Shown piece by piece: positions 1,186 to 44,243 of a stretch of 64,000 nt of DNA. The number at the start of each line of letters is the position of its first letter. Position 1 is the first letter of the stretch. The stretch spans positions 186,001-250,000 of the forward strand of contig NZ_LITT01000011.1 in the NCBI RefSeq assembly GCF_001636845.1. The letters are read 5' to 3'. The notes below the pieces were generated by a model. The model did not search any database, was not told the origin of the DNA, and was given only the letters and a program-made list of their open reading frames with translations. A program made the translations under genes and the position numbers. Source of the stretch: Clostridium ljungdahlii (GTDB taxonomy: Bacteria; Bacillota; Clostridia; Clostridiales; Clostridiaceae).

Positions 1186-1206
1186 ATCAAAAACGGGGGA
1201 GAAATT

Positions 1207-26717: not shown

Positions 26718-26738
26718 TTTTATAATTTATAACATGAA

Positions 26739-26765
26739 ATAGCACGAGTAATTCGTGCTATTTTT
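26739..26765 (+). terminator. Terminator after pepV
   Basis: ATAGCACGA and TCGTGCTAT form a short stem followed by TTTTT. Confidence 0.8.
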
Positions 26766-26805
26766 ATGATATAATAAATGTCACTATTTAGAAATGGAGA
26801 AAAGT

Positions 26806-27285
26806 ATGAATTTAACAATAATTACTGTGGGGAAATTGAAAGAAAAGTATTTAAAAGATGCAGTAGAGGAGTATTCAAAAAGACTGTCTAGATACTGCAA
26901 GATTAATATAGTGGAAGTTCAGGATGAAAAGACTCCAGAAAATGCTTCTAAAAAAGATGAGGATATTATAAGGGAAAAAGAAGGAGCAAGAATATCAAAG
27001 CATATAAGTGATAGTATGTATGTAGTGGCAATGGACCTAAAGGGAAATACTATGACTTCTGAACAGTTTTCTGATTTCATTGGGAATTTAGGACTTCAGG
27101 GCAAAAGCAATATTGCCTTTATAATAGGTGGTTCTCTAGGTATTTCCAGGGAAATTTTGCAAAGGGCTGATTACAAGCTGTGTTTTTCCAAGATGACTTT
27201 TCCTCATCAGCTCTTTAGGGTAATGCTTTTGGAGCAGATATATAGGGGATTTAAGATAATGAAAGGTGAACCGTACCACAAATGA
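26806..27285 (+). CDS. rlmH: 23S rRNA (pseudouridine-1915 N3) methyltransferase
   Basis: A 159-residue SPOUT methyltransferase of canonical length and start (MNLTIITVGKLKEKYLK). The C-terminal knot region IAFIIGGSLG and FSKMTFPHQLFRVMLLEQIYR (named in parts) and the universal end GEPYHK are intact. The ATG at 26806 has GGAG six bases upstream; an ATG at 26794 is unlikely. RlmH methylates pseudouridine 1915 in helix 69. Its last 21 bases are the proposed left attachment site of the island that follows; in staphylococci the same gene (orfX) is the SCC insertion site. Confidence 0.96.
   Translation: MNLTIITVGKLKEKYLKDAVEEYSKRLSRYCKINIVEVQDEKTPENASKKDEDIIREKEGARISKHISDSMYVVAMDLKGNTMTSEQFSDFIGNLGLQGKSNIAFIIGGSLGISREILQRADYKLCFSKMTFPHQLFRVMLLEQIYRGFKIMKGEPYHK
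27265..27285 (+). other. Proposed attL: 3' end of rlmH
   Basis: These 21 bases encode GEPYHK-stop. They match 18 of 21 bases at 41379-41399, which again reads GEPYHK-stop in an otherwise unrelated context, as expected for att repeats flanking an integrated element. Confidence 0.6.
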
Positions 27286-27442
27286 TATCAAACTTTTTAC
27301 CATTATTATCCTTTCAAGTATATGCCATAATATCCGTATTATTAAACCAAAGGACACTTTCACTTGCTTTTCTTTCCCAAATGTTCTCACTTGAGTTGAT
27401 TTTTATTTCTTTGATTAAGCTGTGAAATAAGTCTTGTCTTTA

Positions 27443-27600
27443 TTATTCTGAAGCTGATTCAAAAACCTTATCAAAGTTTTTGAGCATCATAGCAATATTC
27501 TCATAATTAAGTGCTTCTTCTGATAGGCTATTTTTCTTTATGTTTAATTCTGACAAGTCCGCTTTAAGTGATTCAATTTGTTTTTTCAATGATATAGTTA
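27443..27600 (-). pseudogene. C-terminal coiled-coil fragment of a large serine recombinase
   Basis: Read on the minus strand, this part encodes SLKKQIESLKADLSELNIKK followed by NSLSEEALNYENIAMMLKNF and DKVFESASE-stop. This is the typical coiled-coil/C-terminal pattern of large serine recombinases (Recombinase plus zinc-ribbon family). The catalytic and zinc-ribbon domains are missing and the frame upstream runs antisense through the tyrosine-recombinase fragment. It is a dead remnant about 160 bp from the rlmH 3' end. Confidence 0.55.
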
Positions 27601-28159
27601 AACTTTGCGGAAGAGATAACTCAAGAACCCTTTCAATGACAAGAAATGATTTTGATAAGCTTTTATTCACGATGAACAAAAGTGTAAGCTCAGCCAAAAT
27701 AGCAATTGAATTATGTGGTAGATTTGGATTGAGGGTTTCAGAAACAACCAAGTTGCAGTACAGAGATATTGTAATACATGAAGATGGTTTTGTTTCTATA
27801 AATATTGTCGATAGTAAAGGTGGTAGGAGCAGGGTAATAAAAACGTCTAATCCGAGTGATGTCTTATTTTTAGATTTAATAACATCAAATCGAAATGACA
27901 AATTCAGAGTTGTACCAATTAATTCTAAAAGCGTTAATGAGTTTGTCCAGAGATATTTGGAGTTATCAGGTTGGAAAAATATATTAAGGCAAAAACAAGC
28001 ATGTATGCTATAAGAAAAAAGGTGGCACAAGAAAAGTATGATGAATACAGAAACTTAGGTCTTTGCAGAAAAGACTCTATTAATAAGGTTTCATTTTTTC
28101 TTGAACATGGTAAGAATAGAGAGGAATGTATATCCCGATATGTGACCAATACCTGGTAG
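27600..28159 (+). pseudogene. Tyrosine recombinase (phage integrase) remnant, frameshifted
   Basis: The first frame (to 28013) has the catalytic-domain start with box-I arginine in GRFGLRVSETTKLQYRDI and the beta-hairpin lysine in DSKGGRSRVIK. The remainder continues in another frame (about 27990-28159): YAIRKKVAQEKYDEYRNLG, then FFLEHGKNREECISRYVTNTW (named in part), holding the second His-x-x-Arg-like site, the late His and the nucleophile Tyr. A frameshift near 27990-28010 and loss of the N-terminal core-binding domain make it a pseudogene. Confidence 0.65.
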
Positions 28160-29095
28160 AACAGTATCAGACAGAATTTTTATATCAAGAGTTAAAAATC
28201 TAAAAAAGATAACTATAATATAAAATCAATTTCAAAAATGAGATTAAAAAATCTTGTCCCCCAATTTCCAAACTAAAATTTAATAAAGGTTTTCATGATA
28301 TGTTTCCTAAAAAAACTGTTAGTGTTGAGGCACAACCACTATAAAATAAGCTGTTGATTAGTTATCGATAATTCCACCGTTAGAGGGTGATTGTCATTTT
28401 AAGATAACTACCGATAGTTCGGTAGACCTGTCCTGTTGCTTGTCTTGTACAAGCAGGGGGCACACAAGTAGATTAACAATCTTGCGGTGTTTTATAGCAG
28501 ATCTTGACTGCCAATTAGTGTGTTGGTTAGTAATAACCGAGAGAACGGATTCAAATGAAAAGATACGGATACCTCGTTGAGAACCTTCGCCCATGATAAG
28601 TTGAAAGATTTTTTGCCTTTTAACTTGTCAGGGGGGAGTTGCCGTTCTCCATTCAAGAGTCGTTTCCCGTTAAAAACTGCATGAAAAACCTTCTGAGTTA
28701 AACATTCTTAAGTTAAAGATAAACCAATTGTTAAATAGTAATAAAACATTTGGTATATAACAAAATAAATCACAATTATCAAATCTATTATGATTAAAAA
28801 TAATAAACAGCTGAATACAATAATAATCAATTAATAATTAAAAAAGGTCTGGAAATAAAAAAACCTATTTTGACAATAGGATAGAAAGCAGTGCCATTTC
28901 TCACTTTCTAACTATATTATAAATTCAAAATATTAAATGGTCAAGAAAATAATAGTATATTATCGGATTATTAGAATTTTTAATATTCATACTATGTGAT
29001 AGTATGTGAATACATTCCTTAAAGTTTTCCTTTTACAAAATTGTATAGTATGATTCTATTACCAGCTGGAAAAATGAAATTAGGAGATAAACTGT
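28160..29095. other. Gene-free island segment with GC-richer patch
   Basis: About 940 bp without a supported gene. 28380-28690 is visibly richer in G and C than its surroundings and reads unlike local sequence, so it was probably acquired separately; a 66-codon open frame there on the minus strand has no visible ribosome-binding site. At 28985-29011 lies an imperfect palindrome (ATTCATACTAT, GTG, ATAGTATGTGAAT) that could be an operator for the next gene. Confidence 0.5.
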
Positions 29096-30532
29096 ATGAT
29101 GAAGGAAATAAAAGATAAGCTTAATGCATATATCACAAAATATATGTCGTTGTGGGACTTCTATGGTGTTATTCAAGTCATTAATAAAGGTAAAGTTCTT
29201 TTTCAAAATGCATATGGATATGCGAATTTAGAATTTGAATTAAGAAATAATATGAATTCTTGTTTTTCAATAGCCTCTATGTCAAAACAGTTTACTGCAT
29301 TTGGTATCATGATATTATACGACAAAAAAATGTTGGATATAGATAATCCAGCGAATTTGTATCTTCCTTCCAATATTCAAATTGACGAGTTAATAACCAT
29401 ACATCATTTGCTATCACACACATCTGGTTTATATAACTATTATAATTTCGAAGACGATTTTTTTGCAGGATACAATAGAATGGATTATTCACAAAAAGAT
29501 TTTTTTGAAAAATATGTAAATAGACAACCACAATTAACGCCTGGGATAACTTATAACTATAATAATTCAAATTATAATTTGCTTGCGTGGATTATTGAAA
29601 ATGTATCAGGAGAGAAATATGCGGATTTTATTCGAAATAATATATTTCTGCCATTGGGCATGGTAAATAGTGACATCGATGATGGATGTAAAATAATAAA
29701 AAATAGGTCAAGTAATTATTTAATGGATTTTGATTCATATATCAAAATTCCATATTATAACGAAAAATTTAGTATTGGAGCTGGAGCAATAGTTTCAAAT
29801 TGTGAAGATTTATTTAAATGGTATACCTGCTTGAGAGATAGAAAAATTATTTCGGGAGAAACATATGACAGATTTTTTACAGAGAATAAAAACAATTATT
29901 GCTATGGTTTGGAACATCATTATGTTTGCAACAACTCAAGCTATTCTCATGGGGGAGACCATCTGGGGATAAGTACATATATGCAGAATTTTTTTGACGA
30001 GGATATTTGTATTATCATTCTTTCAAATAACGAGTCAATCAATCAGTATAAACTTGGAAATGCTATTTCGGATATTTTACATGATATTGAAGTTCCTACT
30101 CCAGTCAAGTTTGATGAAGCTTCAATAAATAAAAGTTTTCTAAAAGAGTATTGCGGAACATACTTAAAAGATAAAATAAAGATTGAATTTATTAATGAAA
30201 AGTTATATTTTACAAGGTTCTGTGGTAATCTTCATATTGAAATTTACCCAGTAGGAGAAGGAGAATTCGCTCGAAGATATTTTGACCAAATCAATCCATA
30301 TAGAATTATTAGAAATGACAATAACCAACTCGTTTTTTTGGGCACGCTAAGGTCAACTGAAAATAAAAAAGTTATGAAAAAGATAGGATATGTTGGTGAC
30401 AAAATGCTGGTATTTTGTGTTGATTTTAATAGAGTGATAGGCTCAGCTGAATATTTAGAATTTCAATATAAACATGAAATACCTATTGTAACTTTTATAA
30501 CAGGCAGCACTGATACTTGGCTATTCAGATGA
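29096..30532 (+). CDS. Serine beta-lactamase-like hydrolase (class C/PBP-related)
   Basis: A 478-residue protein of the beta-lactamase/transpeptidase-like family PF00144. The active-site motif SMSK is at 61-64, the Tyr-x-Asn motif YNN at 155-157, and an HGG box (SHGGDHLG, about residue 284) replaces KTG. The remaining C-terminal 130 residues are a beta-rich domain often found in these proteins. There is no signal peptide, so it is likely a cytosolic esterase or D-aminopeptidase-like enzyme rather than a periplasmic beta-lactamase. Start at ATG with AGGAG 9 bases upstream. Confidence 0.85.
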   Translation: MMKEIKDKLNAYITKYMSLWDFYGVIQVINKGKVLFQNAYGYANLEFELRNNMNSCFSIASMSKQFTAFGIMILYDKKMLDIDNPANLYLPSNIQIDELITIHHLLSHTSGLYNYYNFEDDFFAGYNRMDYSQKDFFEKYVNRQPQLTPGITYNYNNSNYNLLAWIIENVSGEKYADFIRNNIFLPLGMVNSDIDDGCKIIKNRSSNYLMDFDSYIKIPYYNEKFSIGAGAIVSNCEDLFKWYTCLRDRKIISGETYDRFFTENKNNYCYGLEHHYVCNNSSYSHGGDHLGISTYMQNFFDEDICIIILSNNESINQYKLGNAISDILHDIEVPTPVKFDEASINKSFLKEYCGTYLKDKIKIEFINEKLYFTRFCGNLHIEIYPVGEGEFARRYFDQINPYRIIRNDNNQLVFLGTLRSTENKKVMKKIGYVGDKMLVFCVDFNRVIGSAEYLEFQYKHEIPIVTFITGSTDTWLFR

Positions 30533-30731
30533 TGAAAAAATAAAATTAACAAAGAAAGGCCGATTAAGTGGAGAAGGAGTAATACATTTTGGTAAATACA
30601 AGAGATTGAATGATGAAGGATTGAAAAATATAGTTTTAGAATATGATAGTGAAGACTGGATTTTTATCAGAAATATAGCGAATTTTAAAGGTTATACTTC
30701 TTGCCCACCAATAAAACCATCGATAACATAG
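30510..30731 (+). pseudogene. C-terminal fragment of an unknown protein
   Basis: Just past the hydrolase an open frame without start codon encodes LGYSDDEKIKLTKKGRLSGE and continues with VIHFGKYKRLNDEG and EYDSEDWIFIRNIANFKGYT up to TAG at 30729-30731. Codon use looks coding-like, but no start or ribosome-binding site is present. I do not recognise the family; it is probably the tail of a deleted gene. Confidence 0.35.
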
Positions 30732-30753
30732 AAATTTCTTTAGTGCAAACATA

Positions 30754-30804
30754 TTGACCAAATCGGTTTATGAAGGTATAATTATATAAACCGATTCGGT
30801 TTAT
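30754..30804 (+). promoter_or_regulatory. Sigma-A promoter with TetR operator
   Basis: TTGACC (30754-30759), a 17-bp spacer and TATAAT (30777-30782) make a near-consensus promoter. It is followed by the 19-bp perfect palindrome ATAAACCGATTCGGTTTAT (30786-30804), and a half-site AATCGGTTTAT sits in the spacer. Placement over the transcription start of the tetR gene implies autoregulation. Confidence 0.85.
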
Positions 30805-30823
30805 AAAGCAAGAAGGTGAAGAT

Positions 30824-31438
30824 ATGGAGAAATTTTTTAGTTTACCTAAGGAAAAACAAAATGTGATTATAGATGCTGCACTTAGAACCTTTGGAGCTAA
30901 TGGCTATAAAAAGACTTCCATAAGCGATATTGCTGCTGCTGCAGGAATATCAAAGGCTATGGTATTTCATTACTTTGGTACAAAGAAAGCATTATACCTT
31001 TATCTAGTTAATTTATGCGGCAATATTATGATGACTGTAGTTAATGAAAAGTTTGATAACAGTATTACTGACTTTTTTGACAGAATTAAAATGTCATCTA
31101 GTATAGAAATCTCCGTAATGAAAAGACATGCTGCAATACCTTCCTTTTTAACTAGTGCGTATTTTGAAAATGATGAAGAGGTAAAAGATGACTTAAGAGA
31201 TATCTTTAATAGTGGAGATGAATTTAGAAATAGAATAGCTTTTGATGGCATGGATATTTCTAAGTTTAAAGAGGGGGTGGATCTAAAGTTACTTATGAAA
31301 ATGCTTTTGTGGATGGCGGATGGGTGTACAAAACAGATGTCAGATAAAACAGAAATTAATTTTGAAATTGTGCTGGATGAATTTAATGAATGCTTGGATA
31401 TGCTTAAAAATAATTTTTATAAGGAAGAATATTTGTAG
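30824..31438 (+). CDS. TetR-family repressor
   Basis: A 204-residue TetR regulator. The N-terminal helix-turn-helix is TSISDIAAAAGISKAMVFHYF with GTKKALY (about 24-51); the C-terminal ligand domain is not assignable to a subfamily. Site AAGGTG precedes the ATG. The palindromic operator directly upstream is its obvious target, and the next gene, 60 bp downstream, would be co-transcribed and thus induced by the same ligand, perhaps the drug that the enzyme inactivates (inference). Confidence 0.92.
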   Translation: MEKFFSLPKEKQNVIIDAALRTFGANGYKKTSISDIAAAAGISKAMVFHYFGTKKALYLYLVNLCGNIMMTVVNEKFDNSITDFFDRIKMSSSIEISVMKRHAAIPSFLTSAYFENDEEVKDDLRDIFNSGDEFRNRIAFDGMDISKFKEGVDLKLLMKMLLWMADGCTKQMSDKTEINFEIVLDEFNECLDMLKNNFYKEEYL

Positions 31439-31501
31439 GATATATATAGAGTTAGCTGTTGAAAGATTTTCAAAATGAATTGTGATGAGAGGGGAATAAA
31501 A

Positions 31502-34126
31502 ATGAATTCATATTTATTAAGCTTTAAAGACATTGATAAATCACAGCTTTCAGTAGTAGGAGGAAAAGGTGCAAACCTTGGAGAACTTTCAAGAATTGAC
31601 GGAATACAGGTTCCTGAAGGCTTTTGTATTACTACGTGTGCCTATAAAAAAGTAGTTGAGAATAATAAGGATTTTAATAGCCTATTAGAAAAATTATCCC
31701 ATCTTAAGGTTGAAGATAGAGAAAAAATATGTGAAATCAGTGGACAAATTCGAAAATTAATTGAAGACATCACTATTCCCAAAGATATAGAAGAAGGAAT
31801 AACAACATTTATTAAAAAGTTTGGTGAAAAAAATGCTTATGCAGTTCGTTCAAGTGCTACTGCTGAGGATTTACCTTTGGCTTCCTTTGCAGGACAGCAG
31901 GATACCTATTTGAATATAATGGGAAAGGATTCTATTATTCATCATGTTAGTAAGTGTTGGGCATCACTATTTACAGACAGAGCGGTAATATATCGTATGC
32001 AAAATAACTTTGATCACCGTAAAGTATATCTTTCTGTAGTTATCCAAATGATGGTTTTCCCAGAGGCTTCAGGAATTATGTTTACGGCAGATCCAATATC
32101 AGCAAATAGGAAGATTATTTCAATAGATGCAAGTTACGGACTAGGGGAAGCGCTAGTGTCAGGACTTGTGAATGCTGATATTTATAAAGTTAAAGAAAGC
32201 AAGATTATAGATAAAAAGATATCTACAAAGAAGATTGCTATTTACGGTCTTAAACAAGGAGGAACTGAGAAAAGAGAGATTGAGACTCAAAGACAGAATA
32301 CCCAAACTTTAACAGACCATGAAATTTTACAGCTTGAACAAATAGGCAGGAAAATAGAAAAATATTTTGGGAGACCACAGGATATAGAATGGTGTCTTCA
32401 TGACGGTAATATATATATTGTTCAAAGTCGCCCTATTACTACTTTATATCCCGCTCCAGAAGTTAAAGATGATAAAACTCATGTATTCTTTTCCTTTGGT
32501 CATAGGCAAATGATGACTGAAGCAATGTCACCTTTAAGCATGACCTTCTTTGCAGTTTTATTTAAGATGATGGTAGATACACCAATGTACTATGCAGGTG
32601 GAAGAATATATGTGGACTCATCACATGAATTAAGATCACCTATTATGAGGAAATCTTTTGTCAAAGGGCTTGCTGCAGTAGATGTTCTTATGCAGAATGC
32701 TTATTACAATGTTTTAAAGCGAGAAGATATTATGAATAATCTTTATAAATCAAAGAAGCCAATGGTTTCTATCAAACTGGCTGCCAGGTGGTTTGTTAAA
32801 ACTATAGAATGCTACAGGAAAAATGATCCTGCCATTGCAGAATTCTATATGGCTCGCAGCAGGACTATGATGAAGGATTTAGAGCAGCAGGCACAAAAAA
32901 TTTCAGGTAAGGAGTTATTTGATTTTATTGAGAAGAGCATGACTAAAATAAAGGATAATATGATGGATACTTATGGAGTTGTTTTTGCTGGAGCTTATGC
33001 TTCTAGCTGGATTAACAAGAATTTGGGGAAATGGCTTAAGGAAAGAAATCCAGCAGATATGTTAGCTCAATCCGTATCCAATAATGTTACTTCAGATATG
33101 GGCCTTGAACTTTTAGATGTATCAGATATAGTAAGAAAGTATCCAGAGGTAATTAAATATTTGGAAAATCCTAACGATGAGAGCTTTTTTGAGGATCTTG
33201 TCAAACTTCCAGGAGGAATAGAAGTAAAGGATGCAATGAAGGATTTCCTGAAGAAATATGGTATGCGCTGTTCTGCTGAAATAGATATAAGCAAGACTAG
33301 ATGGAATGAGAAACCAACAATATTGGTTCCATTGATTCTAGGAAATATTAAGGTTTATCCTCCTAATTCTCACGAAACTAAATTCAAGCAAGGACTTAAG
33401 GAAGCTAAAGAGAAGGAGCAGGAGATTTTAAGAAAGCTTGAAAAGATGCCAGGAGGTAGAGGAAAAGCTAAAAAGGCAAAGAAAGCAATCAGTGTCCTAC
33501 GTAATTATGCGGGATATCGTGAGTTTAACAAGTATATCTTAATTTGGTATGAATGGGTTGTAAAACAGGTTATTATGAAAGAAGCTGAAAGATTAATACA
33601 ACATGATCTCATAAAGAAAACAAGTGATATATTCTATCTTGAATATGAAGAATTGAGAGAAGTAATTAAAACTAATAAATTAGATTATAGTATCATACAG
33701 AAAAGACAAGAAGATTATGAGGTTTATCAAAAACTTACACCGCCTCGTGTAATTACCTCTGATGGAGAGATTATTTCCAGTCAATATGATATAAGCAAGA
33801 TTCCTCAGGGTGCCTTAGCAGGGGTAGCAGTATCAGCAGGTATCATTGAAGGCAGGGCAAGAGTAATATTAAAAATCGAAGATGCAAATATTGAAAAAGG
33901 TGATATACTAGTTACTACTTTTACTGATCCTAGCTGGACACCGGTATTTGTATCTATCAAAGGATTAGTTACAGAAGTTGGTGGAATGATGACTCATGGA
34001 GCAGTTGTTGCAAGAGAATATGGACTTCCAGCAGTAGTAAGCGTGGAAAATGCTACAAAGATTATAAAGGATGGACAGAGAATCCGTGTAAATGGAACAG
34101 AAGGATACGTGGAAGTACTTGAGTAA
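31502..34126 (+). CDS. Rifamycin phosphotransferase-like / PEP-synthase family enzyme
   Basis: An 874-residue protein with three domains: ATP-grasp (about 1-310, with VGGKGANLGELS, AVRSSATAEDLPLASFAGQQ and DIEWCLHDGNIYIVQSRPITT, named in parts), a central helical domain (about 330-760) and a swivelling phosphohistidine domain with GGMMTHGAVVAREYGLPAVV containing His832. Length and order match rifamycin phosphotransferases (Rph), which move the beta-phosphate of ATP onto rifampicin; PEP synthases have the same end domains but lack the helical middle and carry a PEP-binding barrel. Start chosen at 31502 (GAGGGGA site). Drug specificity is inference. Confidence 0.82.
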   Translation: MNSYLLSFKDIDKSQLSVVGGKGANLGELSRIDGIQVPEGFCITTCAYKKVVENNKDFNSLLEKLSHLKVEDREKICEISGQIRKLIEDITIPKDIEEGITTFIKKFGEKNAYAVRSSATAEDLPLASFAGQQDTYLNIMGKDSIIHHVSKCWASLFTDRAVIYRMQNNFDHRKVYLSVVIQMMVFPEASGIMFTADPISANRKIISIDASYGLGEALVSGLVNADIYKVKESKIIDKKISTKKIAIYGLKQGGTEKREIETQRQNTQTLTDHEILQLEQIGRKIEKYFGRPQDIEWCLHDGNIYIVQSRPITTLYPAPEVKDDKTHVFFSFGHRQMMTEAMSPLSMTFFAVLFKMMVDTPMYYAGGRIYVDSSHELRSPIMRKSFVKGLAAVDVLMQNAYYNVLKREDIMNNLYKSKKPMVSIKLAARWFVKTIECYRKNDPAIAEFYMARSRTMMKDLEQQAQKISGKELFDFIEKSMTKIKDNMMDTYGVVFAGAYASSWINKNLGKWLKERNPADMLAQSVSNNVTSDMGLELLDVSDIVRKYPEVIKYLENPNDESFFEDLVKLPGGIEVKDAMKDFLKKYGMRCSAEIDISKTRWNEKPTILVPLILGNIKVYPPNSHETKFKQGLKEAKEKEQEILRKLEKMPGGRGKAKKAKKAISVLRNYAGYREFNKYILIWYEWVVKQVIMKEAERLIQHDLIKKTSDIFYLEYEELREVIKTNKLDYSIIQKRQEDYEVYQKLTPPRVITSDGEIISSQYDISKIPQGALAGVAVSAGIIEGRARVILKIEDANIEKGDILVTTFTDPSWTPVFVSIKGLVTEVGGMMTHGAVVAREYGLPAVVSVENATKIIKDGQRIRVNGTEGYVEVLE

Positions 34127-34184
34127 ATTAATGTTATTTAGTATTTTCGGGTTACACAAAATTTCCCGTAGTTTAATTAAAAAT

Positions 34185-34229
34185 ATAGGATTCTGCATAA
34201 TTAGCAGAATCCTATTTGTATTGTTTTCA
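34185..34229 (+). terminator. Terminator of the tetR-phosphotransferase operon
   Basis: ATAGGATTCTGC pairs with GCAGAATCCTAT around an 7-base loop, followed by TTGTATTGTTTT. Confidence 0.8.
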
Positions 34230-34256
34230 GAACGAATGGTCATATAAAATATAATA

Positions 34257-34285
34257 TTGACATTTATTATATAGTTCAATATTAT
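34257..34285 (+). promoter_or_regulatory. Promoter of the marR-like gene
   Basis: TTGACA (34257-34262), 17-bp spacer, TATTAT (34280-34285), about 35 bp before the likely start. Confidence 0.65.
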
Positions 34286-34319
34286 ATGCATATACATATA
34301 GATGGGAGGTAGTTTAGAT

Positions 34320-34748
34320 TTGGCTATTAAAAGTAGCAAAGAGCACCTAAAAGATTGTGTATGTAAAAATTTGAGGATGACAACAAGAATAGTAACGCAA
34401 TATTTTGATAAAGCCTTCCAGCCTGTTGGTTTACGTGCCACTCAATTTGCCCTGCTAGCGGATGTTTCTTCACGTGAAAGTAGTACAATAGGCGAATTGG
34501 CAGATATTTTACTAATGGATCAAACAACTGTAACACGAAACATCAAAATATTAAAGAAAAAAGGGTATGTTAATGTAAGACAGGGAGAAGATGATTCACG
34601 AAAGAGATGTATCTCTACAACTGAGAGTGGACTTGCAAAACTTAGAGAGGCTATAAATAGAGAACAAAGATTTTTAATAATAGAATTTGGTGACGAATAT
34701 GAGAAATATATAAAAAGATCATGGGTGTTAATTCCTTATATATTCTAA
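34320..34748 (+). CDS. MarR-family regulator
   Basis: A MarR winged-helix protein of 142 residues if read from the TTG at 34320, which is 10 bases after GGGAGG; the ATG at 34302 overlaps that site. The DNA-binding core is STIGELADILLMDQTTVTRN, then ILKKKGYVNVRQGEDDSRKR (wing) and ISTTESGLAKL. The last residues (SWVLIPYIF) do not look like the usual dimerisation helix, so the C-terminus may be altered by a frameshift. Its target is unknown; no partner gene is obvious. Confidence 0.8.
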   Translation: MAIKSSKEHLKDCVCKNLRMTTRIVTQYFDKAFQPVGLRATQFALLADVSSRESSTIGELADILLMDQTTVTRNIKILKKKGYVNVRQGEDDSRKRCISTTESGLAKLREAINREQRFLIIEFGDEYEKYIKRSWVLIPYIF

Positions 34749-34983
34749 ATCCATGATAGGAAGAAGTATATGGCTATCATATAAGTACTTTCAAATTTTA
34801 GAGACTGTTCAATAGTTGTTTTTATAAAAAATCGGGCTATAGAAAAAAATTTATTTAATGAAATTTCAATCATATTAGGAAGAGCCCAAGATAACATTCA
34901 ATTCACAGAACCTATAACTGAAAATTTGCAGTATAATATATAGAAAATGAAACCTATAAAAATAAGATGGAGTGTAGAGAAAA
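34749..34983. other. Intergenic region, nothing recognised
   Basis: A 235-bp AT-rich stretch between the marR-like gene and the membrane protein. It ends with the ribosome-binding region of the latter. No gene or clear structure seen. Confidence 0.5.
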
Positions 34984-36480
34984 ATGGGAAAGTACAAGCA
35001 AATTACAAAAAGAGGATTAATTTCATCAATGATAAGTTGGTCAATATTTACATTAGTATATTGGATTTCATTTTATGAATTATATACTTTATGTAAATTT
35101 GGACGATTTAAGAATAATATAACTGTATTATTGGGATGTATGGTATTCTTTTTGGCTTGGTTTATAATTCTAATAATTAGAATTGTGAAAAAACCAGCAG
35201 TTGTATCTGAGCAGAATGTAGATAGATATAATTTCTATTCGCGTTGTAAAACTATATGGACTTGTACAATTATAATAATTATAGTTCTTATAACATGTTT
35301 TTATGGAGTGAAAATATACCATAGTGCAATAAATTACAATGGAAAGTTATCATGGTTCTTAAGTGATTTAAAAAATAAAAGAACTGTAAAGCTTGAACAT
35401 AATAATATATATGAAAGTGGTATAGAAGGGATATTTACAGATATTAATAAAAAAGTTCATATGCCAGAAAAATTATATGTTGTAAATAACTTTAGTCTTA
35501 AATTTGATTCTAATGGAGAAATTACATCTTTTGATACATTCCTTTATGGGAAAAATGCTAAAGATAAGATAGAAAGCTATTTAATTAGTTATAACAGCAA
35601 AAATTCAGGGAATATAACTATATATTTAAATGGTTATGCAAGTGCGAATTATAATGATGATAAACTTTTAGAACCATTAATTAAGACAATGAAAGTAATT
35701 CCACTTAAGAAAACAGTGAGGAACTGGCCTGAAGAACAGTATGGTATTCTTTATTCTGGTAAACGAAGTTTTGGATATAATACAGATGGTATTGTTTATA
35801 TTGATTCAAAGGGAAATACAAATTCAGCTGTTAATGCCTATTCTGAAATAGTTGGATATACTGTTTCTGTATTTGTACCAGGCAAGGAGAATAAATATAC
35901 TCCTGTTAGATATAACTTAACAGATGATTTAAATAATATTAAAACAACAAAACCTTCAAAAGACAATAAAAAGAGTTCTAATCAATCAAAGAGTGCTGAA
36001 GATCAATTTTATTTATCAAAGCAAGTTTGGTATCGTTTAGAAGTAACTGCAGCTGCAGCGGGTAGTAGATCTTATTCATTAACTGGTACTACCGATGGTG
36101 GGCAAACATGGAAGACAATAAATGAGGATCCATTTTCAGGTTCCCTTGGATCAGCAGCAGGAATAACATTTTTGAATAATAAACTTGGATTTTTATGTTT
36201 ATCTTATAGCGGTGGAAGTAAGGGGCAATTATATCGCACAGAGGATGGAGGGGGATCTTATAAAAAGGTGAATTTCCCAGAAACGAAAGTAGCATTAAAT
36301 GATGGCGAAACGTATAATCCTTTTGATTTACCTGGAATGCCTTATGAGAAAGATGGAAGTCTTAATGTTTTAGTTGGACAAGGATCTGATGGAGATTATA
36401 ATGGAGGCTGTAAAGCTTTGTACCAATCAAAAGATAATGGAGTAACATGGAAGTATTTAAAAGAAACTGATAAAAATTAA
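34984..36480 (+). CDS. Membrane protein with BNR/YCF48-like repeats
   Basis: A 498-residue protein. Three hydrophobic helices lie in the first 115 residues (about 14-36, 45-66 and 92-112), so the rest is anchored at the membrane, probably outside. The C-terminal 150 residues hold Asp-box (BNR) motifs, SxDxGxTW-like: TTDGGQTWKTI, RTEDGGGSYKKV and SKDNGVTWKYL, as in sialidase-like and YCF48 beta-propellers. A hydrophilic Lys/Ser-rich linker (about 319-335) separates the halves. The function is unknown. Confidence 0.75.
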   Translation: MGKYKQITKRGLISSMISWSIFTLVYWISFYELYTLCKFGRFKNNITVLLGCMVFFLAWFIILIIRIVKKPAVVSEQNVDRYNFYSRCKTIWTCTIIIIIVLITCFYGVKIYHSAINYNGKLSWFLSDLKNKRTVKLEHNNIYESGIEGIFTDINKKVHMPEKLYVVNNFSLKFDSNGEITSFDTFLYGKNAKDKIESYLISYNSKNSGNITIYLNGYASANYNDDKLLEPLIKTMKVIPLKKTVRNWPEEQYGILYSGKRSFGYNTDGIVYIDSKGNTNSAVNAYSEIVGYTVSVFVPGKENKYTPVRYNLTDDLNNIKTTKPSKDNKKSSNQSKSAEDQFYLSKQVWYRLEVTAAAAGSRSYSLTGTTDGGQTWKTINEDPFSGSLGSAAGITFLNNKLGFLCLSYSGGSKGQLYRTEDGGGSYKKVNFPETKVALNDGETYNPFDLPGMPYEKDGSLNVLVGQGSDGDYNGGCKALYQSKDNGVTWKYLKETDKN

Positions 36481-36484
36481 TTAT

Positions 36485-36524
36485 CTATATAAACTACTAT
36501 AAATGCTAATAGTAGTTTATATAG
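36485..36524. terminator. Perfect 16-bp inverted repeat after the BNR gene
   Basis: CTATATAAACTACTAT and ATAGTAGTTTATATAG with an 8-base loop, directly after the stop codon. There is no T-run, so it may be a weak terminator or mRNA-stabilising hairpin. Confidence 0.6.
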
Positions 36525-36707
36525 GTGCTAAATTTTAACACTGGATAAGAGACCCACGAAGTCTATAGGAGTCACCTGTCATGTCTATGATGAGGGTGTG
36601 AAATTTTTTCTGTAAATTGGCTTTCTATGATAGTTTTTCAAAGGCAGATATTATTAAATTTAATTTCTATCTTAATTTTCAATATACAATTTAAAAATGA
36701 GTATGTC

Positions 36708-36740
36708 AATAACGCCTCCAAATGCAGGCGTTATTTTTAT
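36708..36740 (+). terminator. Isolated terminator hairpin
   Basis: AATAACGCCT pairs with AGGCGTTATT, followed by TTTATA. It ends no intact gene and lies beside the IS256 fragment. Confidence 0.55.
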
Positions 36741-37034
36741 AAATATTTTATTCATGTAACCTGCCATCATACATTATTGACAGTTCACCATAAACTGAGC
36801 ACTGACGTCCATTTTTTAATTGCTTCAAAGGTCGCAAGATACAGGGCGTTAAGAAGTGCTGTATCACTTGGTAATATGCTGCGCTAGCTTGTTAAGTCTG
36901 CGGTACGTGCTGATGAGACTCTCTATGGTGTTTGTAGTATATATAACTTTTCTAACCTCGGGTGAAAATTTAAATATAGGGGTTATGGCATCTTAGTTTT
37001 TTGCCCAGCTTTTCATTTTATCTTTAATTACTGA
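36740..37034 (-). pseudogene. IS256-family transposase fragment
   Basis: On the minus strand the sequence reads MKSWAKN, stop, DAITPIFKFSPEVRKVIYTT and NTIESLISTYRRLNKL, and after two further stops ATFEAIKKWTSVLSLW. This is the C-terminal part of a mutator-type (IS256) transposase, whose signature is FSPEVRKVIYTTNAIESL. Several in-frame stops and the missing N-terminal two thirds make it non-functional. Confidence 0.75.
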
Positions 37035-37505
37035 ATAAGATCACATAAGACCACATACAGTTAATGACGGACTCATACAATTTGAGGTAAGATATAAAAA
37101 TTAAAGATATTAGGTCAAAGTGTTACAAAAAAATTTTACTATTACAAATAATAGCGTTAATAAGTAGTGACCATGAACAAACCGTATTAGTCAAATCTAA
37201 TGCAGTTTTGTAGTATAATTATTATGTTATGTTTATTACATAAATGTAAAAAGTAGGTATTCCAGTGAGGTGATAAGGTTATGAATTGTGTAAAAGGAAA
37301 AATATTAGTAGCTGTTGAACAGCAGATAAAAATACCGCTATAGAGTTTCCATTGTCTCAAAATATTTAAGATAGAAAACTAGAAAGATTAAAAAGTATTG
37401 TGAGAGTTATTAAAATTGTATCTATAAATATGCGTAAAGTGTAGAATATGTTTTCTATGCTTTTTTAGCAAAGAATTATTTTAGCCAAAGGGAGGAGGAA
37501 GTTTA
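37035..37505. other. Degenerate intergenic stretch in the island
   Basis: About 470 bp without a convincing gene. A 20-codon frame at 37281-37343 (MNCVKGKILVAVEQQ and on) follows a good GAGGTG site and may be the start of a lost gene. The promoter of the STAND gene should lie here (possible TATAAT near 37214). Confidence 0.4.
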
Positions 37506-40500
37506 ATGGCCATTGAAAGTGGAGGAAGAGCAGATAAGCTAGGAAATCGACATGAAGGTAGATGGCTTGTTAAGCAGTTATTGAGATTATTAAGAGAAGA
37601 GATATATTAAAAAATATGAAATTTCAATTAAATAGGGATAAAAGTTATGAATTTATGCTAGTTTCAGGAGTAGGATTTACGGCTTTGGCGGATGTTTGTG
37701 AAAGTGCACGTATTTCCAATGAAAATTCAGAAGATTTCTATCAATATCAAATTATTAAACAAGGGATGTCTAGAAAAAAAATTTATAATGATTTTTGCAA
37801 TGCTATAAATTTGAATCAGGACAAAAAAGAAGATAGAACAAAGGCCTTCGATTATTTAAAACGTCTGAAAATAACTACATACTTGGGCGATTATGAAAGC
37901 AAGCAAGATTTATTAACTGAAATTAATATACTGTTTGATGGAGATACAGAATTCATTTATAATACGTTGATAAATTATGCTGAAGAAAATGACAAGCTTG
38001 GCAAACCAATTTATTGCGATAGTTTATATAATTTTTTAATAATAAATGAAACAAAAGAATGTTATGATTCTTTGAAAAAAGAAGGATTAGTTATATTACA
38101 CGGAAATGCTGGTACAGGTAAAAGCGGAGTATTATTGGAACTAATAAATAGATTGGAGGAAGAGGGAATATCATATCTACCACTGAGGGTAGATAGAAAA
38201 ATACCTAAAAACTCATCTTTACAATATGGTAAAAGTATGGATTTACCTGATTCACCAGTTCAGTGTATAAATGCAGTATCAGGTGAAAGTCCATGTGTCT
38301 TAATAATTGATCAACTTGATTCGGTAAGATGGACTAGCAATCATTCTCTAGATGCTTTGGATGTTTGTAAGTCATTAATTAGGGAGGCTTTATCATTAAG
38401 AAGGATAGGCAAAGATATTAAAGCCCTTATAGCTTGTCGTACTTTTGATCTAAATCATGATCCTGAGATAAGAAATTGGCTAACTGTCCAAGACAAAGGA
38501 AATGAACAAGTTTGGGATAGAGTTGAGATTAATAAATTACCAACAGAGGATATTGTCGCAGTTATAGGAGATGCCTATAATAACTTAGCATCTCAGCAAA
38601 AGGAATTACTATCATTGCCACAAAATCTCGCTATGTGGTGCGAAATAAGTGGCGATAATATGAATGCTATTTTTACTACATCTATTGATTTATTAAGGCA
38701 ATTTTGGAGTAAAAAAGTCAAAGATATTGAAAGTGAGTCTATAAATTATGTTGATCTTAACAGTACTTTGGATAGACTTATTTCTTATAGCGAAAATAAT
38801 GGAACAATATCTATACCTTCAAGCTATGTAAGAAAATTTTCTGGTAAAGTGCTTTCGGCTCTGAAATCAAATGGAATAATTCAGCAGCAAGACAACATTA
38901 TTAGTTTTTGCCATCAAAGCTACCTAGATTTCCTTATAGCTGAAAAAGTTGTAAGTGAAATTGAGGAGGGTGGAAGTATACTTAATTGGATTGGGGAAAA
39001 GGAAATTCAAACGCTTTTTAGAAGAGAACAACTTAGACAAGCTTTAAGTTTATTACTAGAGGAATGCCTAATAAAGTTTACTCAAATAGTGAAGGATATT
39101 CTTTTCTCTGAAAATGTTAGATTCCATTTTAAACATTTAGCATTGGAAGTATTGGGGCAAAATACTAAATCTAATAAAAGTATAGAGGATCTTATTATTA
39201 ATCTTATCGACAAAGCATATTGGAAGCAACATATAATAGATACAATCATTATGGGTAACGAATTTTCTACTAGGTCCTTAATAAAAAATAACATAATAGA
39301 TACATGGCTTAAATCAAAAGACGAAGTGCTTGTAAAGCAGGCGATGAATATTTTACAATCTGTTTGCGTAAAGATGCCTGACGAGGTTACTAAATTATTA
39401 AAACCACATGTAGATGAAAGTCCAGAGTGGAACAGTGCAATAAATGCTGTCATAGGACGGGACATAGAAAATTATAGAAGAAAAAATAATACATTACCAT
39501 GATCCTAATGAAATTGAAAATGCTAAATATTATTTAAAAATTCGCAAACAGGGCTATTATGGACATTATTGGGGAAAGGCACAGTATCTGCTCTTAACAA
39601 ACTTGGAACCTCAAAGAATGAGTAGGGAAGCTTTAGAGTTATTAAATGTATTAAAAAGAAGATATGCTTGTTATACAAGAAAAAACATTATGGGAAATGT
39701 AGGTGTTCATACATGTTGGATAGGGTCTACACTAGATAAAAATCTTTCAAAGATAAGTGATAAAGCATGGCTTAATATAATAACTAATAAAAATATTGAA
39801 TTTGATCATCCTACAAAAACAAAGTACGTTGAAGGGCAACATGGAGTTGAGTCATCTATATGGCAATTTTCAAGAAGTTTAAGTACTGTTGCAAAGTATT
39901 ATCCAGAAAGATTTGCAAAATTATCGTTAAACTTTCCACAAGATACTCATCATTCATATATTTCAGCTATTATGGATGCGTTAAAAATAGTTAAAGTAGA
40001 AGATAACTTTCCAGAAGAAATTAAAAATAATTGGCAGCCAGCACAAATAGATACTGTATTTAATGTTTTAAATAAATTTGCGGATTTAAATGATCGTGAT
40101 ACTACAATTTCATTTTGCAGGTTAATTAGTGATAGATCTGAGGAAGCATGGCCGATGGAGATAATAGATAGATTACTATTTTTGGCGATAAATTCTTCTG
40201 ACCCGAAAAGTGGACAGCTTAATGTATGGGATGCTAATTGGGATAAAAATATGGAAAATGTAACAGTACATACATTATTTGATAATACTTTTAATTGTGT
40301 TAAAGGGGTAGCAGCAGAGGCTATTGGAAAGTTACTCTGGAATAATCAAGAACTTTTTGACAAGGTATTTAAAGCAATTGAGTCACTTGTTCAAGACCCC
40401 AATCCAATTGTTAGAATGGCATCAGTGTATACGCTTATACCTGTTATAAATATTAATAGAGATAAGGCTGTTGAATGGTTTAATATAACTGCAAAAGAGG

Positions 40501-41219
40501 ACTTAAGGATATTAGGATCATATTATTCAATGGAGTTCATTAAGTATACTATAAAAAGTCATACAGAAATAATTTCATCTATCATAAGAAAAATGTTTTT
40601 ATCAGCAAATGAAGAGGTTTCATCTAAAGCAGCAGAAATGATTTCGGAATATAATATTTTATATGGAATGTTCGATGAGGAACTAGAAAAATGCTGTAAA
40701 GGAACTGTGAACCAAAAAAAAGGAGTAATATTAATTGCTTCACAGCTTATAATTAATCCTGATTATGCTGTTAAATGTAGGAAACTAATAGAACGATTTA
40801 TAGATGATGATAATGAAGAAGTCAGAAAATAAACAGGATTCGCTTTTAATAAAGATATCCTTCAAGTAAAAGATAATATAGAATTTGCTAAAAAGTATAT
40901 ATATTCTAAATCTTTTATAAATGACACAATGTTGTTGAATATTTTGAAGGATTATAAGGAGAGTTTGCTGGACTTTGCTAATATTATTTTTGATATATGT
41001 TATGCGTTATCAAGTATTCATAATAAGGATATAAAAGAAAATGATTATAGACTAAACTACAAAAGTGAAGAAATATCTGAATTGCTATTAAGACTGTATG
41101 ATCAATCTTTTAACTATGATGAGAAGATTTTTTACAAATGTCTTAATGCATGGGATGTTATGTTTGAAAGTGGAATTTTACATGCGAGGAATTTGACTAG
41201 GAAAATAGATAGCCAGTAA
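37506..41219 (+). pseudogene. STAND-type NTPase defence gene, decayed
   Basis: The frame starts MAIESGGRADKLGNRHEG and stops after 34 codons. Reading resumes in another frame as DILKNMKFQLNRD near 37601 and runs to 39502 with Walker A GNAGTGKS (38102-38125) and Walker B-like CVLIIDQLD, then shifts again at an A6 run near 39481 and continues (HYHDPNEIENAKYY) to a TAA at 40830, beyond which the same frame stays open to 41219. Both ends look intact, so the ancestor was about 1,200 residues: an N-terminal DUF4297/Cap4-nuclease-like domain, a P-loop NTPase, and a long helical HEAT-like C-terminus. The nuclease core is deleted. Such architecture is known from Avs-like anti-phage proteins; the subfamily is inference. 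Confidence 0.7.
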
Positions 41220-41378
41220 TGTATATTTATAATTTCTGTTATTGAGGATGTAATAATGATGATAGAATTAAACTATTTAATGGATCATAAAAGGATAAAC
41301 CATTTGATTAACTAAGGAAGGCTTACAAATGGGGTAGGTTTTGCTGCTCCATTTATAGTTATCCGTTTAAATAGTTAC

Positions 41379-41399
41379 GGAGAACCTTACCACAAATAA
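41379..41399 (+). other. Proposed attR: second copy of the rlmH end
   Basis: Matches 18 of 21 bases of 27265-27285 and again encodes GEPYHK-stop, while the preceding codons do not resemble RlmH. This is best explained as the displaced 3' end of rlmH left by site-specific insertion. Confidence 0.6.
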
Positions 41400-41451
41400 C
41401 GTAGATTTAAAAGAAAAAGAGTATTTGAGACCATGACATTTATGCTAGATT

Positions 41452-41622
41452 TTACCTTTCATTTGAACGTATAAAATTTGATAACTGCATTTTGCTATTA
41501 ACATTTAATTTTTTATAAATATTTTGTATGTGATTATCAACGGTTTTAGGGGATATAAAAAGTTTTTCAGCAATTTGTTTATATGTTACTCCTTCCATGA
41601 CAAGTTCTATAATCTCACCTTA
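41452..41622 (-). pseudogene. LuxR/GerE helix-turn-helix fragment
   Basis: The minus strand encodes EIIELVMEGVTYKQIAEKLF and ISPKTVDNHIQNIYKKLNVN followed by SKMQLSNFIRSNER-stop, the classical LuxR-type DNA-binding domain. Everything N-terminal is missing; at about 41625 the sequence switches to the oppositely oriented Fe-S protein. It is the tail of a deleted response regulator. Confidence 0.75.
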
Positions 41623-41624
41623 TT

Positions 41625-42034
41625 TTTTTGTAGTGCCTTACCATATGCAAAACACTAGAATTTCCATAAGCAGCGTACATGACGTAATTCGATACTATAT
41701 AATAACCATATCTATTATTTTGATAACAATAGCAGCAGGCAAAAGGACATGGTGCCGATACATCTGTCCAATGTATATATTTAATTATGTTGGAATTAAG
41801 ATAGGAAGATTTTTTAAGTTGCCTACCTTGAAAATAGTAAGTGAAAGTGATAAATGTACTCAATGCAGAAAATGTACTGATCACTGTTTGATGGGTCTTG
41901 ATGTAGCTAATATGGTTAAAAATAATAAATGGAATACTAATGAGTGTATCAAATGTGGGGAATGTTTAAATCAATGTAAATGTGATGCGTTGAAAATAAA
42001 GTGGACAAAGCAGGTAAGTAACAAAGTGATATAA
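41625..42034 (+). pseudogene. N-terminally truncated NapH/FixG-like 4Fe-4S membrane protein
   Basis: About 135 residues remain: a transmembrane helix (DVIRYYIITISIILITIAAG), the motif KRTWCRYICPMY typical for NapH/NosR/CcoG-like membrane Fe-S proteins, and two ferredoxin motifs (CTQCRKCTDHC and CIKCGECLNQC). The formal start at 41597 lies in foreign (LuxR antisense) sequence, so the gene has lost its N-terminal membrane part and its own start. It probably carried electrons at the membrane. Confidence 0.65.
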
Positions 42035-42063
42035 TTTACTTATAAGTTAATTTGCATTTTTTA

Positions 42064-42915
42064 CTATTTGCATTTTAAATATTGTATGAATAATTTAACT
42101 TGAGGCAGCGTATAATAAAAATTCTTGCATAAAATATAAGTGCTGCGAGAAAATGAAACTCCATTTGAAAAATATAAATCTTTAACATAACCGTCAAAGT
42201 TTTTTAAGCAAATTTTGGGGAGGATACCCCATCCTAGTCCGTGCTTAGCCATTTCTAAACAAGTATCAATATTGTCAACCCAAAGTTTTGTATTGTTAAT
42301 AGATATGTTATTTTCAAAAAGCCAAGTTTGAATTTTTCCTTGTGAAACGGGATCGGTAGTTCTACCGATGTATGAATAAGAATTAAGAGAGAGATTTGCA
42401 TTTTCATTACTGCATATGAGGCACATCGGTTCAGTATCTAATAGTATGGTAAGTTCGTCCCACTTGTATTCTCCCCGTATGATGACTATAGAAAATTCAT
42501 CGTTTTTAAGTCTATTATATAAATTTTTGCTATGATCAGTAGATATATTGACATCAACATTTGGAAATGCTTCTGTATAACTTTTTAAAACTTTAGGAAG
42601 GCGATATCGTGCATAATTTAATGAGACTCCAACAGTTAAATTTCCACCTATAAAGTTATGGTTGGAGGATACATGCTCACGCATCTGGTTTAAAGTATTT
42701 ACTACAGTTCTGATATAGGGGATGATGCTTTCACCTAAAGGAGTAAACAAGACTCCCTTTTTAGAACGAATAAGTAAATCGGTACCTAAATTTTTTTCTA
42801 TTTTTTTAATCCTCTTTGTCAGAGCAGGTTGAGTGATAAATAATTTTTCAGAGGTCTTTGTAATATTTTTTAATTTATATAATGTCAAAATTAGTTTGTA
42901 ATCTTTTTCATCCAT
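42064..42915 (-). CDS. LysR-family regulator (next to chrA pair)
   Basis: A 283-residue LysR-type regulator: N-terminal HTH (LYKLKNITKTSEKLFITQPA, then LTKRIKKIEKNLGTDL) and a periplasmic-binding-like effector domain (GNLTVGVSLNYARYRLPKVL). I start it at the ATG at 42915 with AAAGG upstream rather than the ATG at 42936. It is divergent from the two chromate-transporter-type genes with a 130-bp shared promoter region, the usual arrangement for a LysR activator and its target operon. Confidence 0.88.
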   Translation of the reverse strand: MDEKDYKLILTLYKLKNITKTSEKLFITQPALTKRIKKIEKNLGTDLLIRSKKGVLFTPLGESIIPYIRTVVNTLNQMREHVSSNHNFIGGNLTVGVSLNYARYRLPKVLKSYTEAFPNVDVNISTDHSKNLYNRLKNDEFSIVIIRGEYKWDELTILLDTEPMCLICSNENANLSLNSYSYIGRTTDPVSQGKIQTWLFENNISINNTKLWVDNIDTCLEMAKHGLGWGILPKICLKNFDGYVKDLYFSNGVSFSRSTYILCKNFYYTLPQVKLFIQYLKCK

Positions 42916-43047
42916 AGTTATTAATCCTTTATCCATTACTTTTAGTTATGACTATTTATAAAATAGTATCATTATACATTATACATTATAACATATATAC
43001 TGAAATTAAAAGATTAAAGAAAAATTTTTAGCATAAAAGGAGATAAA

Positions 43048-43662
43048 ATGATTAATACAAATAAATTTAAATCAGATACTTTTACAATTACCAAACTGTT
43101 TCTTACATGGTTACAAATTGGTTTTACATCATTTGGTGGTGGTGCAACTACCCAATATCTTATTCAAGAACAGTTTATTTATAAGCATAAATGGATAACA
43201 GATGAGGAATATGCGAATATTATTGGAATGTGTCAAATAACACCTGGTATGAATATTATTGCATATACAATACTTATAGGAAAAAAGCTAGCTGGAGGAA
43301 TAGGAATATTTATATCCCTGGTGGGACTTATTTTGCCTAGTGCAGCAGTTACAATTGCATTAACTACGATTTATACTTCTATTAGCAATTCATCAAAAGT
43401 ACATTCTGCACTTCATGCAGTATTTGCTGCTATTTTTGGTATAGCTTTAGCTACAAATTGGAGAAATGTACAACCTATTATTATAAAAAATTATAAAAGG
43501 GGATCTATGATTTTTGGGATAACAATTGCAATAATGATAGGTAGTGGTGCTATTTACATATTTTTGAATCCATCTGTAATTTTATTATATGTTTTAGGCG
43601 GATTATTTGGTTCTGCTGCTTATTGGTATATTTCTAAAAAAGAGGTGAAGGTTAATAAATGA
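43048..43662 (+). CDS. ChrA-type transporter, half 1
   Basis: A 204-residue membrane protein with six hydrophobic segments of the chromate transporter (CHR) family: FLTWLQIGFTSFGGGATTQY and MCQITPGMNIIAYTILIGKK are the signature FGG and PGP-like loops. In short-chain CHR systems two adjacent half-size genes form the transporter. Its stop overlaps the second half (ATGA). In anaerobes without chromate exposure the true anion could differ, e.g. sulfate or organic anions (inference). Confidence 0.88.
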   Translation: MINTNKFKSDTFTITKLFLTWLQIGFTSFGGGATTQYLIQEQFIYKHKWITDEEYANIIGMCQITPGMNIIAYTILIGKKLAGGIGIFISLVGLILPSAAVTIALTTIYTSISNSSKVHSALHAVFAAIFGIALATNWRNVQPIIIKNYKRGSMIFGITIAIMIGSGAIYIFLNPSVILLYVLGGLFGSAAYWYISKKEVKVNK

Positions 43663-44162: not shown

Positions 44163-44243
44163 TTGTATTGGATAAAAGGAAATAGATTTTATGGATAAAG
44201 TTATTGAAATATAAATTAGTTATAGATGAAATGAGGGATAAAA

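Follow-up and report, generated by a model that had tools for sequence, protein, structure and literature searches.

In Clostridium ljungdahlii the last 21 bases of rlmH recur downstream of the gene in the same orientation, and we suggest that the two copies are the attL and attR attachment sites of elements that were inserted at the rlmH 3' end by large serine recombinases of the Ccr kind, a reading to which we assign a probability of about 0.84. The stretch analysed, referred to as the window, comprises 64,000 nt of the forward strand (assembly GCF_001636845.1, contig NZ_LITT01000011.1, positions 186,001-250,000); G-, L- and C-numbers are labels for genomes, loci and contigs, respectively. 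The staphylococcal cassette chromosome (SCC) is the vehicle of methicillin resistance and targets the same gene end. An earlier note on this DNA had proposed that targeting of the rlmH end extends to clostridia, and for large serine recombinases this proposal is supported by extra copies of the repeat, CcrB/CcrC-like recombinases, attR arms, a Cch-domain helicase and a filled/empty pair of sites.

The rlmH repeat and its recombinases in Clostridiaceae

The two copies in the window, GGTGAACCGTACCACAAATGA (27265-27285) and GGAGAACCTTACCACAAATAA (41379-41399), are identical at 18 of 21 positions, lie on the same strand and both read GEPYHK-stop, and on this point sequence, repeat search and shuffles agree with the earlier note. 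With up to three mismatches allowed the 64 kb contain no further match, shuffling the window 100 times with dinucleotides preserved gave none, and across the 4.36-Mb genome the degenerate pattern is matched exactly at just the same two places, both on contig C1; the pair is beyond chance. The codons before the second copy had been described as unrelated to RlmH, and indeed the frame before 41379 is open for only ~22 codons and has no RlmH reading; nor does the copy appear to be part of an unrelated conserved gene, as no frame of at least 60 aa was found to end there. Between the two copies, i.e. in the island, no convincing degenerate repeat was found (best 16/21; a 17/21 match at 41630 lies outside), and an Rfam scan of 26500-42500 gave no matches.

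The pattern GGNGARCCNTAYCAYAARTRR, which is the DNA of GEPYHK-stop, was searched in 206 Clostridiaceae genomes and gave 430 copies in 170 of them, with at least two copies in 95 genomes and up to 11 exact copies per genome; the reversed pattern gave none. RlmH was found in 198 of the 206 genomes. Counts of position use the 149 genomes with a listed rlmH (first match of each), in which 112 rlmH tails fit the strict pattern. Here, 57 extra copies lie within 30 kb downstream of rlmH, all on the same strand, and none within 30 kb upstream; these copies are found in 43 of the 149 genomes, and a further 195 copies are located elsewhere, other contigs of draft genomes included. All 110 pairs of neighbouring copies at most 30 kb apart are co-oriented, with a median spacing of 4.5 kb and 39 pairs under 3 kb. 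Among 199 genomes sampled evenly across the phylum, the pattern is matched in 52 and at least twice in 13, the window's own among them; rlmH tails of other spelling escape this count.

Clostridial rlmH loci also hold full-length recombinases. At five of them (L074, L075, L076, L077 and L080) copies lie 13-19 kb apart, and a recombinase of 554-562 aa (type I) is encoded between the copies, 1-7 kb before the second. A second type (type II; 542-547 aa) is encoded on the opposite strand at L079, which is at rlmH, and at L072, where the repeat is away from rlmH, and both genes end at the repeat. In a motif scan of frames of at least 300 aa, L074-L077 have one recombinase each rather than a ccrAB-type pair, and L080 has one among the frames listed. 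For all six recombinases scanned with NCBIfam the best model is CcrB and the second CcrC, with CcrB scores of 382-405 bits for type I and 293-295 bits for type II, all under the CcrB cut-off of 900; by these curated models none is a ccrA/B or ccrC gene (best L075, CcrB 402 bits and CcrC 352 bits).

L075, the one element scanned in this respect, encodes a protein with DUF927 and the Cch helix-turn-helix domain (PF18662), i.e. a cch-type helicase near the recombinase; none was seen in the island of the window. On an SCC-type staphylococcal plasmid, two genes annotated 'recombinase family' come after a DUF927 gene; we take the three to be cch, ccrA and ccrB, names that the record does not give. 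The type I recombinase of L075 is 44.8% identical over 382 aa to the second recombinase of the plasmid, type II is 32% identical to it, and the two DUF927 proteins share 28.8% over 566 aa. TP901-1-type phage serine integrases belong to the same superfamily and, in contrast to the 45% identity to the SCC relative, are 30-32% identical to the clostridial recombinase among the 15 of 110 records listed. A protein of ~116 aa (KLYKKEQLEELKEKYSKE...) encoded at L075:6021-6371 has no Pfam match and recurs, judged by eye, in L074, L076, L077 and L088.

The recombinases and the repeat occur together. At E <= 1e-60, relatives of type I gave 40 matches in 36 of the 206 genomes, of which 37 lie within 5 kb of a copy and one at 7 kb, the remaining two having no copy on their contig. 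When named genomes were searched with the type I alignment, 79 loci were kept of 165 relatives, from Clostridium gasigenes, C. weizhouense, C. tertium, Lachnospiraceae, Lysinibacillus, Niallia and others; some of these records overlap with the survey. A copy is present in 73 of the 79 loci (108 copies in all; reversed control 0, using an 18-base form of the pattern).

Two genomes of the window's genus differ at the site itself. G004 and G011 are 96.5% identical over the 994 bases up to the rlmH stop, at which the homology breaks. In G004 a further 1169 bases follow, up to a degenerate copy (19/21), and past this copy it continues with the sequence that directly follows rlmH in G011 (84% over 352 bases); the same flank matches the sequence after rlmH in G009 (80% over 717), G007 (88% over 794) and G012 (85% over 794). 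On this comparison, G004 and G011 are a filled/empty pair with exact edges. Seven species of the genus (L034, L036, L037, L039, L040, L047 and L048) have a conserved unit of ~300 bases after rlmH, with two hairpin-like stretches seen by eye; it occurs twice in G001. A match of the attR flank of G001 to the sequence after rlmH in other species also resembled a simple empty site; this reading was dropped, part of the flank being present twice in G001.

The sites have a recognizable anatomy. Among 137 sites with enough flank, in loci chosen for having copies, 45 are at rlmH, 51 have a left arm of attR type (TATCACTT..CTGATAC or CCTCACTT..TAGTTAC), 15 have an rlmH-like arm away from rlmH and 26 have neither; the arm consensus strings were drawn from the same sites that they classify, and of 2740 random positions one fell into either class of arm. 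Together with the repeat the attR arm makes up the dyad ATGATACGG-TGAA-CCGTATCAT, an inverted repeat present at 51 of the 137 sites; a similar inverted repeat at attR is described for the Enterococcus cassette chromosome (ECC) and SCC in the accessible text of PMC6222049. In most of 19 pairs of the rlmH copy and the next copy the likeness is confined to the 21 bases; in the pairs of G001, G012 and G089 the right flank is alike too. In the 22 bases after GAACC, attR of the window matches the rlmH tails of nine of nine relatives better than the present rlmH tail does (20 against 15 matches for G003, 17 against 16 for G005 and 18-20 against 12-14 for the others), as expected if the last codons of rlmH came with the element.

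Sites whose left arm resembles that of rlmH (0-3 mismatches in 23 bases) were found in 22 of 26 genomes, with up to ten per genome when rlmH's own is counted; some of them lie away from rlmH. The reversed control gave none in the 26 genomes, ruling out a chance origin. Integration does not explain the ectopic arms because integration of a circle creates none away from rlmH; such sites may be selected landing pads. Two ectopic sites on the minus strand (L193 at ~4790 and L200 at ~4190) were considered as empty sites and dropped: in both, GGTGAACC is followed by sequence running into GTGCGG, and the DNA upstream is different and unrelated. By its motif, this sequence may be the start of a group II intron homing to the att site.

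Combining these data, we suggest that the recombinase would act within GGNGAACC of the rlmH tail and join to it the circular form of an element, whose attP would consist of the dyad with SCC-like arms. The last codons of rlmH would then come from the element, which leaves the reading frame whole and shifts the former tail to the distal end, and each new insertion would land beside rlmH, so that elements would stack.

The layered island of C. ljungdahlii and alternative explanations

The features of the island are listed in Table 1.

Table 1. Features of rlmH, the island and its right flank in the window
Feature	Position	Strand	Basis
rlmH, target gene, frame intact	26794..27285	+	PF02590, 206.8 bits; sequence
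Putative attL, rlmH 3' end, GEPYHK-stop	27265..27285	+	Repeat search; homology break at the same position in G004/G011
C-terminal remnant of a large serine recombinase, 'type II'-like	27269..27730	-	tblastn, L079 residues 371-544
Tyrosine-recombinase remnant, degenerate	27540..28013	+	PF00589, 27.2 bits (cut-off 27.1); weak XerD/XerA matches
Cargo: beta-lactamase-fold serine hydrolase	29096..30532	+	PF00144, 159.6 bits
Cargo: TetR-family regulator	30824..31438	+	PF00440
Cargo: phosphoenolpyruvate (PEP)-synthase / rifamycin-phosphotransferase-type protein	31475..34126	+	NF004877, 1461 bits; NF041857, 1230 bits
Layer common to sister species; BNR-type repeats at 34984-36480	34825..36464	+	Blocks of 88-95% identity; weak Sortilin/BNR
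STAND-NTPase/HEAT open frames (37616-39502, 39603-40832, 40929-41219)	37616..41219	+	PF13191/nSTAND and HEAT matches, both below cut-off
Putative left arm of attR at the end of the element; resembles the consensus of attR arms weakly	41358..41378	+	Score 0.62
Putative attR, second GEPYHK-stop copy	41379..41399	+	Repeat search, shuffles
Right flank beyond the island; collinear in G003 and G005 save species-specific gaps	41449..44171	.	Blocks of 94-98% identity

Remnants of two recombinases lie between the copies, in line with the earlier note, which had also placed a serine recombinase fragment beside rlmH. The serine remnant matches the L079 recombinase with 29.5% identity over 176 aa (tblastn, E 2.3e-9); its gene reads towards rlmH and ends inside the first copy of the repeat, likewise the intact genes of L079 and L072 end at the repeat. 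In the genome of the window no relative of type I was found at E <= 1e-60, and a profile of types I and II gave five matches (best 3.3e-57), none of them on C1. Four of the five are long frames (515-595 aa) that are ~30% identical to types I and II; the four large serine recombinases of this genome score 116-153 CcrB bits, against 402 for L075. A recombinase of either site-linked type was thus not found in this genome; one of its other large serine recombinases may still act on the rlmH site.

Genes of resistance and defence type had also been noted between the copies, and candidates for such genes are the hydrolase, the PEP-synthase/rifamycin-phosphotransferase-type protein and the STAND-NTPase/HEAT frames. 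The hydrolase reaches no NCBIfam cut-off among the 25 families listed. The protein at 31475-34126 exceeds the cut-offs of both its NCBIfam models; it passes as a rifamycin phosphotransferase, but PEP synthase scores higher. The STAND-NTPase/HEAT frames have PADLOC matches to the candidate defence family PDC-M54A (1.2e-15 and 3e-5) and are candidates for defence cargo that may have decayed; no counterpart was found within 20 kb downstream of rlmH in G003 or G005.

These two sister genomes, ~95% identical to the window, were compared over 20 kb from rlmH, to which the following results refer. rlmH and the flank from 41449 are collinear between the window and both sisters, and 27286-34650 and 36480-41449 have no counterpart in either. 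The possibility that relatives conserve the genes at 28-41 kb applies to one part only, the layer from 34825, which reaches 36464 in G003 and 36213 in G005 and sits there behind different rlmH-proximal genes. A second copy of the repeat is absent from both sisters, and the empty-site allele that the earlier note expected in relatives, with the sequence from 41400 directly after rlmH, was not found in them. Pieces of type I recombinases follow rlmH in G003 (43 aa, 58%) and G001 (110 aa, 75%), and in G002 a recombinase frame of 706 aa begins 89 bases after the rlmH stop.

Judged by its sequence, the island is a decayed, layered composite rather than one clean insertion, and the system in the window looks like a fossil. 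We suggest that an element with its recombinase at the left end was inserted and decayed atop an older layer shared with the sisters; the newest layer would lie beside rlmH, the shared layer would be older, and the right end would be oldest of all, its attR having survived in the window but not in the sisters. A frame at 34302-34748 has the start of a MarR regulator, whereas its final 98 bases match, at 99% identity, the end of another gene of G003; it is apparently a chimera produced by decay.

In G002 (L038, G002:C12:145000-164900, reverse strand, with features at 532-1002, 1091-3211, 13694-14116 and 15872-15892) the 706-aa serine recombinase is a different one and apparently inserted inside rlmH, the host RlmH ending ...GEP-stop. 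This 15-kb element encodes its own RlmH-like protein of 140 aa, which is below the NCBIfam cut-off, ends APYHK and is perhaps a rescue copy.

Several observations weigh against insertion by Ccr-kind recombinases. The serine recombinase of the window is a short fragment of 29.5% identity and is adjoined by the tyrosine-recombinase remnant; the score of 0.62 of the attR arm in the window is reached at 125 positions on the plus strand and at 223 on the minus strand, of 63970 each; and G003 and G005 lack an empty allele of the window's own island and share its middle without a second repeat. The Ccr scores are below the NCBIfam cut-offs, and the CcrB model also matches serine recombinases that are not beside a repeat. 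The flank in the G004/G011 comparison belongs to a recurring unit (twice in G001; partial in G004, G010 and G012), and G004 has a further insertion of ~14 kb downstream before the G011 homology resumes. Finally, all evidence is comparative, and excision is predicted.

Among the alternatives, the one that survives best is still improbable, namely that a tyrosine recombinase of the type of phages, integrative and conjugative elements or integrative and mobilizable elements used the rlmH end and made the repeats, the serine fragment being a bystander. The degenerate tyrosine recombinase at 27540-28013 and a tyrosine-recombinase-like frame of 234 aa, seen by eye in the G002 element, speak for it. 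However, across the family the repeat is associated with large serine recombinases (37 of 40 relatives within 5 kb, 73 of 79 named loci; no matching survey of tyrosine recombinases was made), and the serine remnant of the window ends inside the repeat as the intact L079 and L072 genes do. Less probable again is a spread of the rlmH tail without any site-specific recombinase, through duplication, gene conversion or transposition. It would fit the ectopic rlmH-like left arms that plain circle integration leaves unexplained, but the likeness of these arms to rlmH fades at about -18 (by eye), the element-side arms have a consensus of their own (51 attR-type sites, against 1 of 2740 random positions), neighbouring pairs are co-oriented without exception and the G004/G011 pair has exact edges. 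Least probable of all, a chance copy at 41379 or one within an unrelated conserved gene, with 28-41 kb as ordinary chromosome, fits the conservation of 34825-36464 in G003 and largely in G005 but is in the main refuted by the shuffles, the lack of a frame of at least 60 aa ending there, and the sisters, in which the second copy and the two unshared segments have no counterpart over the 20 kb compared.

Small cassettes and arrays

In addition to elements with their own recombinase, insertion at the rlmH end by Ccr-kind recombinases may extend to small units closed by the same site. Defining a cassette as the DNA between consecutive sites (19-21/21, one at least 20) 0.5-8 kb apart in loci chosen for copies, we found 81 cassettes in 30 genomes with a median of 2.3 kb; 62 of them have one to three frames of at least 80 aa, and 182 cassette frames run with the repeat and 43 against it. 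Arrays at rlmH comprise three and four cassettes (G114 and G115), and an array elsewhere comprises six (G181).

No full-length type I or II recombinase was found in the 81 cassettes. C-terminal recombinase pieces of 30-205 residues are present in 19 of them, all on the strand of the repeat and none starting before residue 339, and in the other 62 no piece was found at E <= 1e-4. Based on these relics, some small cassettes are probably deletion products of autonomous elements, as pseudo-SCC elements are. Among the 198 frames of at least 110 aa, 79 proteins from smaller cassettes were scanned; they include GyrI-like (6), AraC (5), GNAT (5), Cass2 (5), MerR (4), MarR (4) and LysR (3) proteins, and cassette proteins match defence families such as PtuA, PtuB, AriAB and AbiU.

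Cassettes recur at different sites and in different genomes. One is located at rlmH in G063 and elsewhere in G043 (89% identity over 1678 bases), flanked by the repeat on either side in the two genomes. A MarR-MATE cassette is shared by G053, G063 and G097 at 95-97% identity; a repeat was found at each of its ends in G053 and also in G097, where a recombinase relic lies next to it. Because the site is shared, we infer that the recombinase may act in trans on cassettes that lack one. We tentatively suggest, at somewhat less than even odds, that Clostridiaceae possess a counterpart of integrons based on Ccr-type serine recombinases, in which small, mostly co-oriented cassettes that lack a working recombinase and are each closed by a site of the rlmH tail would be captured and shuffled in trans. 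The recombinases would come from autonomous elements resident in the genome and act at rlmH as well as at ectopic pads with an rlmH-like attB arm.

On the minus strand of the window, a protein encoded at 57712-58875 has a long C-terminal run of near-identical SSGQTT repeats.

Relation to known elements

The clostridial elements resemble SCC of the CcrC type in the rlmH 3' target, the direct repeats, the inverted repeat at attR, the Ccr-like recombinase, the DUF927 helicase upstream of it, tandem composites and pseudo-elements without recombinase. They differ in that the recombinase is single, ~45% identical to its SCC relative and below the NCBIfam cut-offs for CcrA/B/C, in that many cassettes are only 0.5-3 kb, in having copies at loci besides rlmH and in their hosts.

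The idea of targeting the rlmH end is not wholly new. According to the accessible parts of two reports, Enterococcus has elements of this sort (PMC6222049), and they are also mentioned for several Bacillota, where the islands of C. difficile and C. perfringens occupy ssrA (PMC10061031). ECC has the rlmH site, the inverted repeat at attR, the TATCATAA motif and variable cargo in common with the clostridial elements; it has a ccrAB pair and fewer than five att matches per genome, whereas clostridia have a single recombinase and up to 11 exact copies (PMC6222049, accessible text). The Pol-SSB islands of Bacillota are mostly located downstream of rlmH, end in repeats of the rlmH tail, and have large serine recombinases and tandem composites, but the accessible text of that report contains no clostridial rlmH elements or small-cassette arrays (PMC10061031). 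The main text of PMC10083194 does not mention rlmH, and among PMC titles and the starts of abstracts, a scope that leaves subscription papers and bioRxiv outside, we found no report of clostridial rlmH-end elements or arrays of small cassettes.

Chromosomal integrons similarly consist of tandem small cassettes that are mostly co-oriented and each closed by a recombination site, and the Cass2-domain proteins (5 of the 79 clostridial cassette proteins) are integron-like cargo. Unlike in integrons, the clostridial site is a copy of the rlmH end and is associated with serine recombinases, whose relics occur in 19 of the 81 cassettes.

The wider family of SCC is little mapped, and the data presented here suggest that the same target and logic run through the Clostridiaceae, with related recombinases and the same repeat also present in Lachnospiraceae and, among bacilli, for example in Niallia and Lysinibacillus. 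Being short and well defined, the sites provide a simple rule for finding mobile cargo, i.e. to search for copies of GEPYHK-stop. If arrays of small cassettes are indeed mobilised in trans, they would constitute a second platform for gene capture, based on a class of proteins unrelated to the integron integrases.

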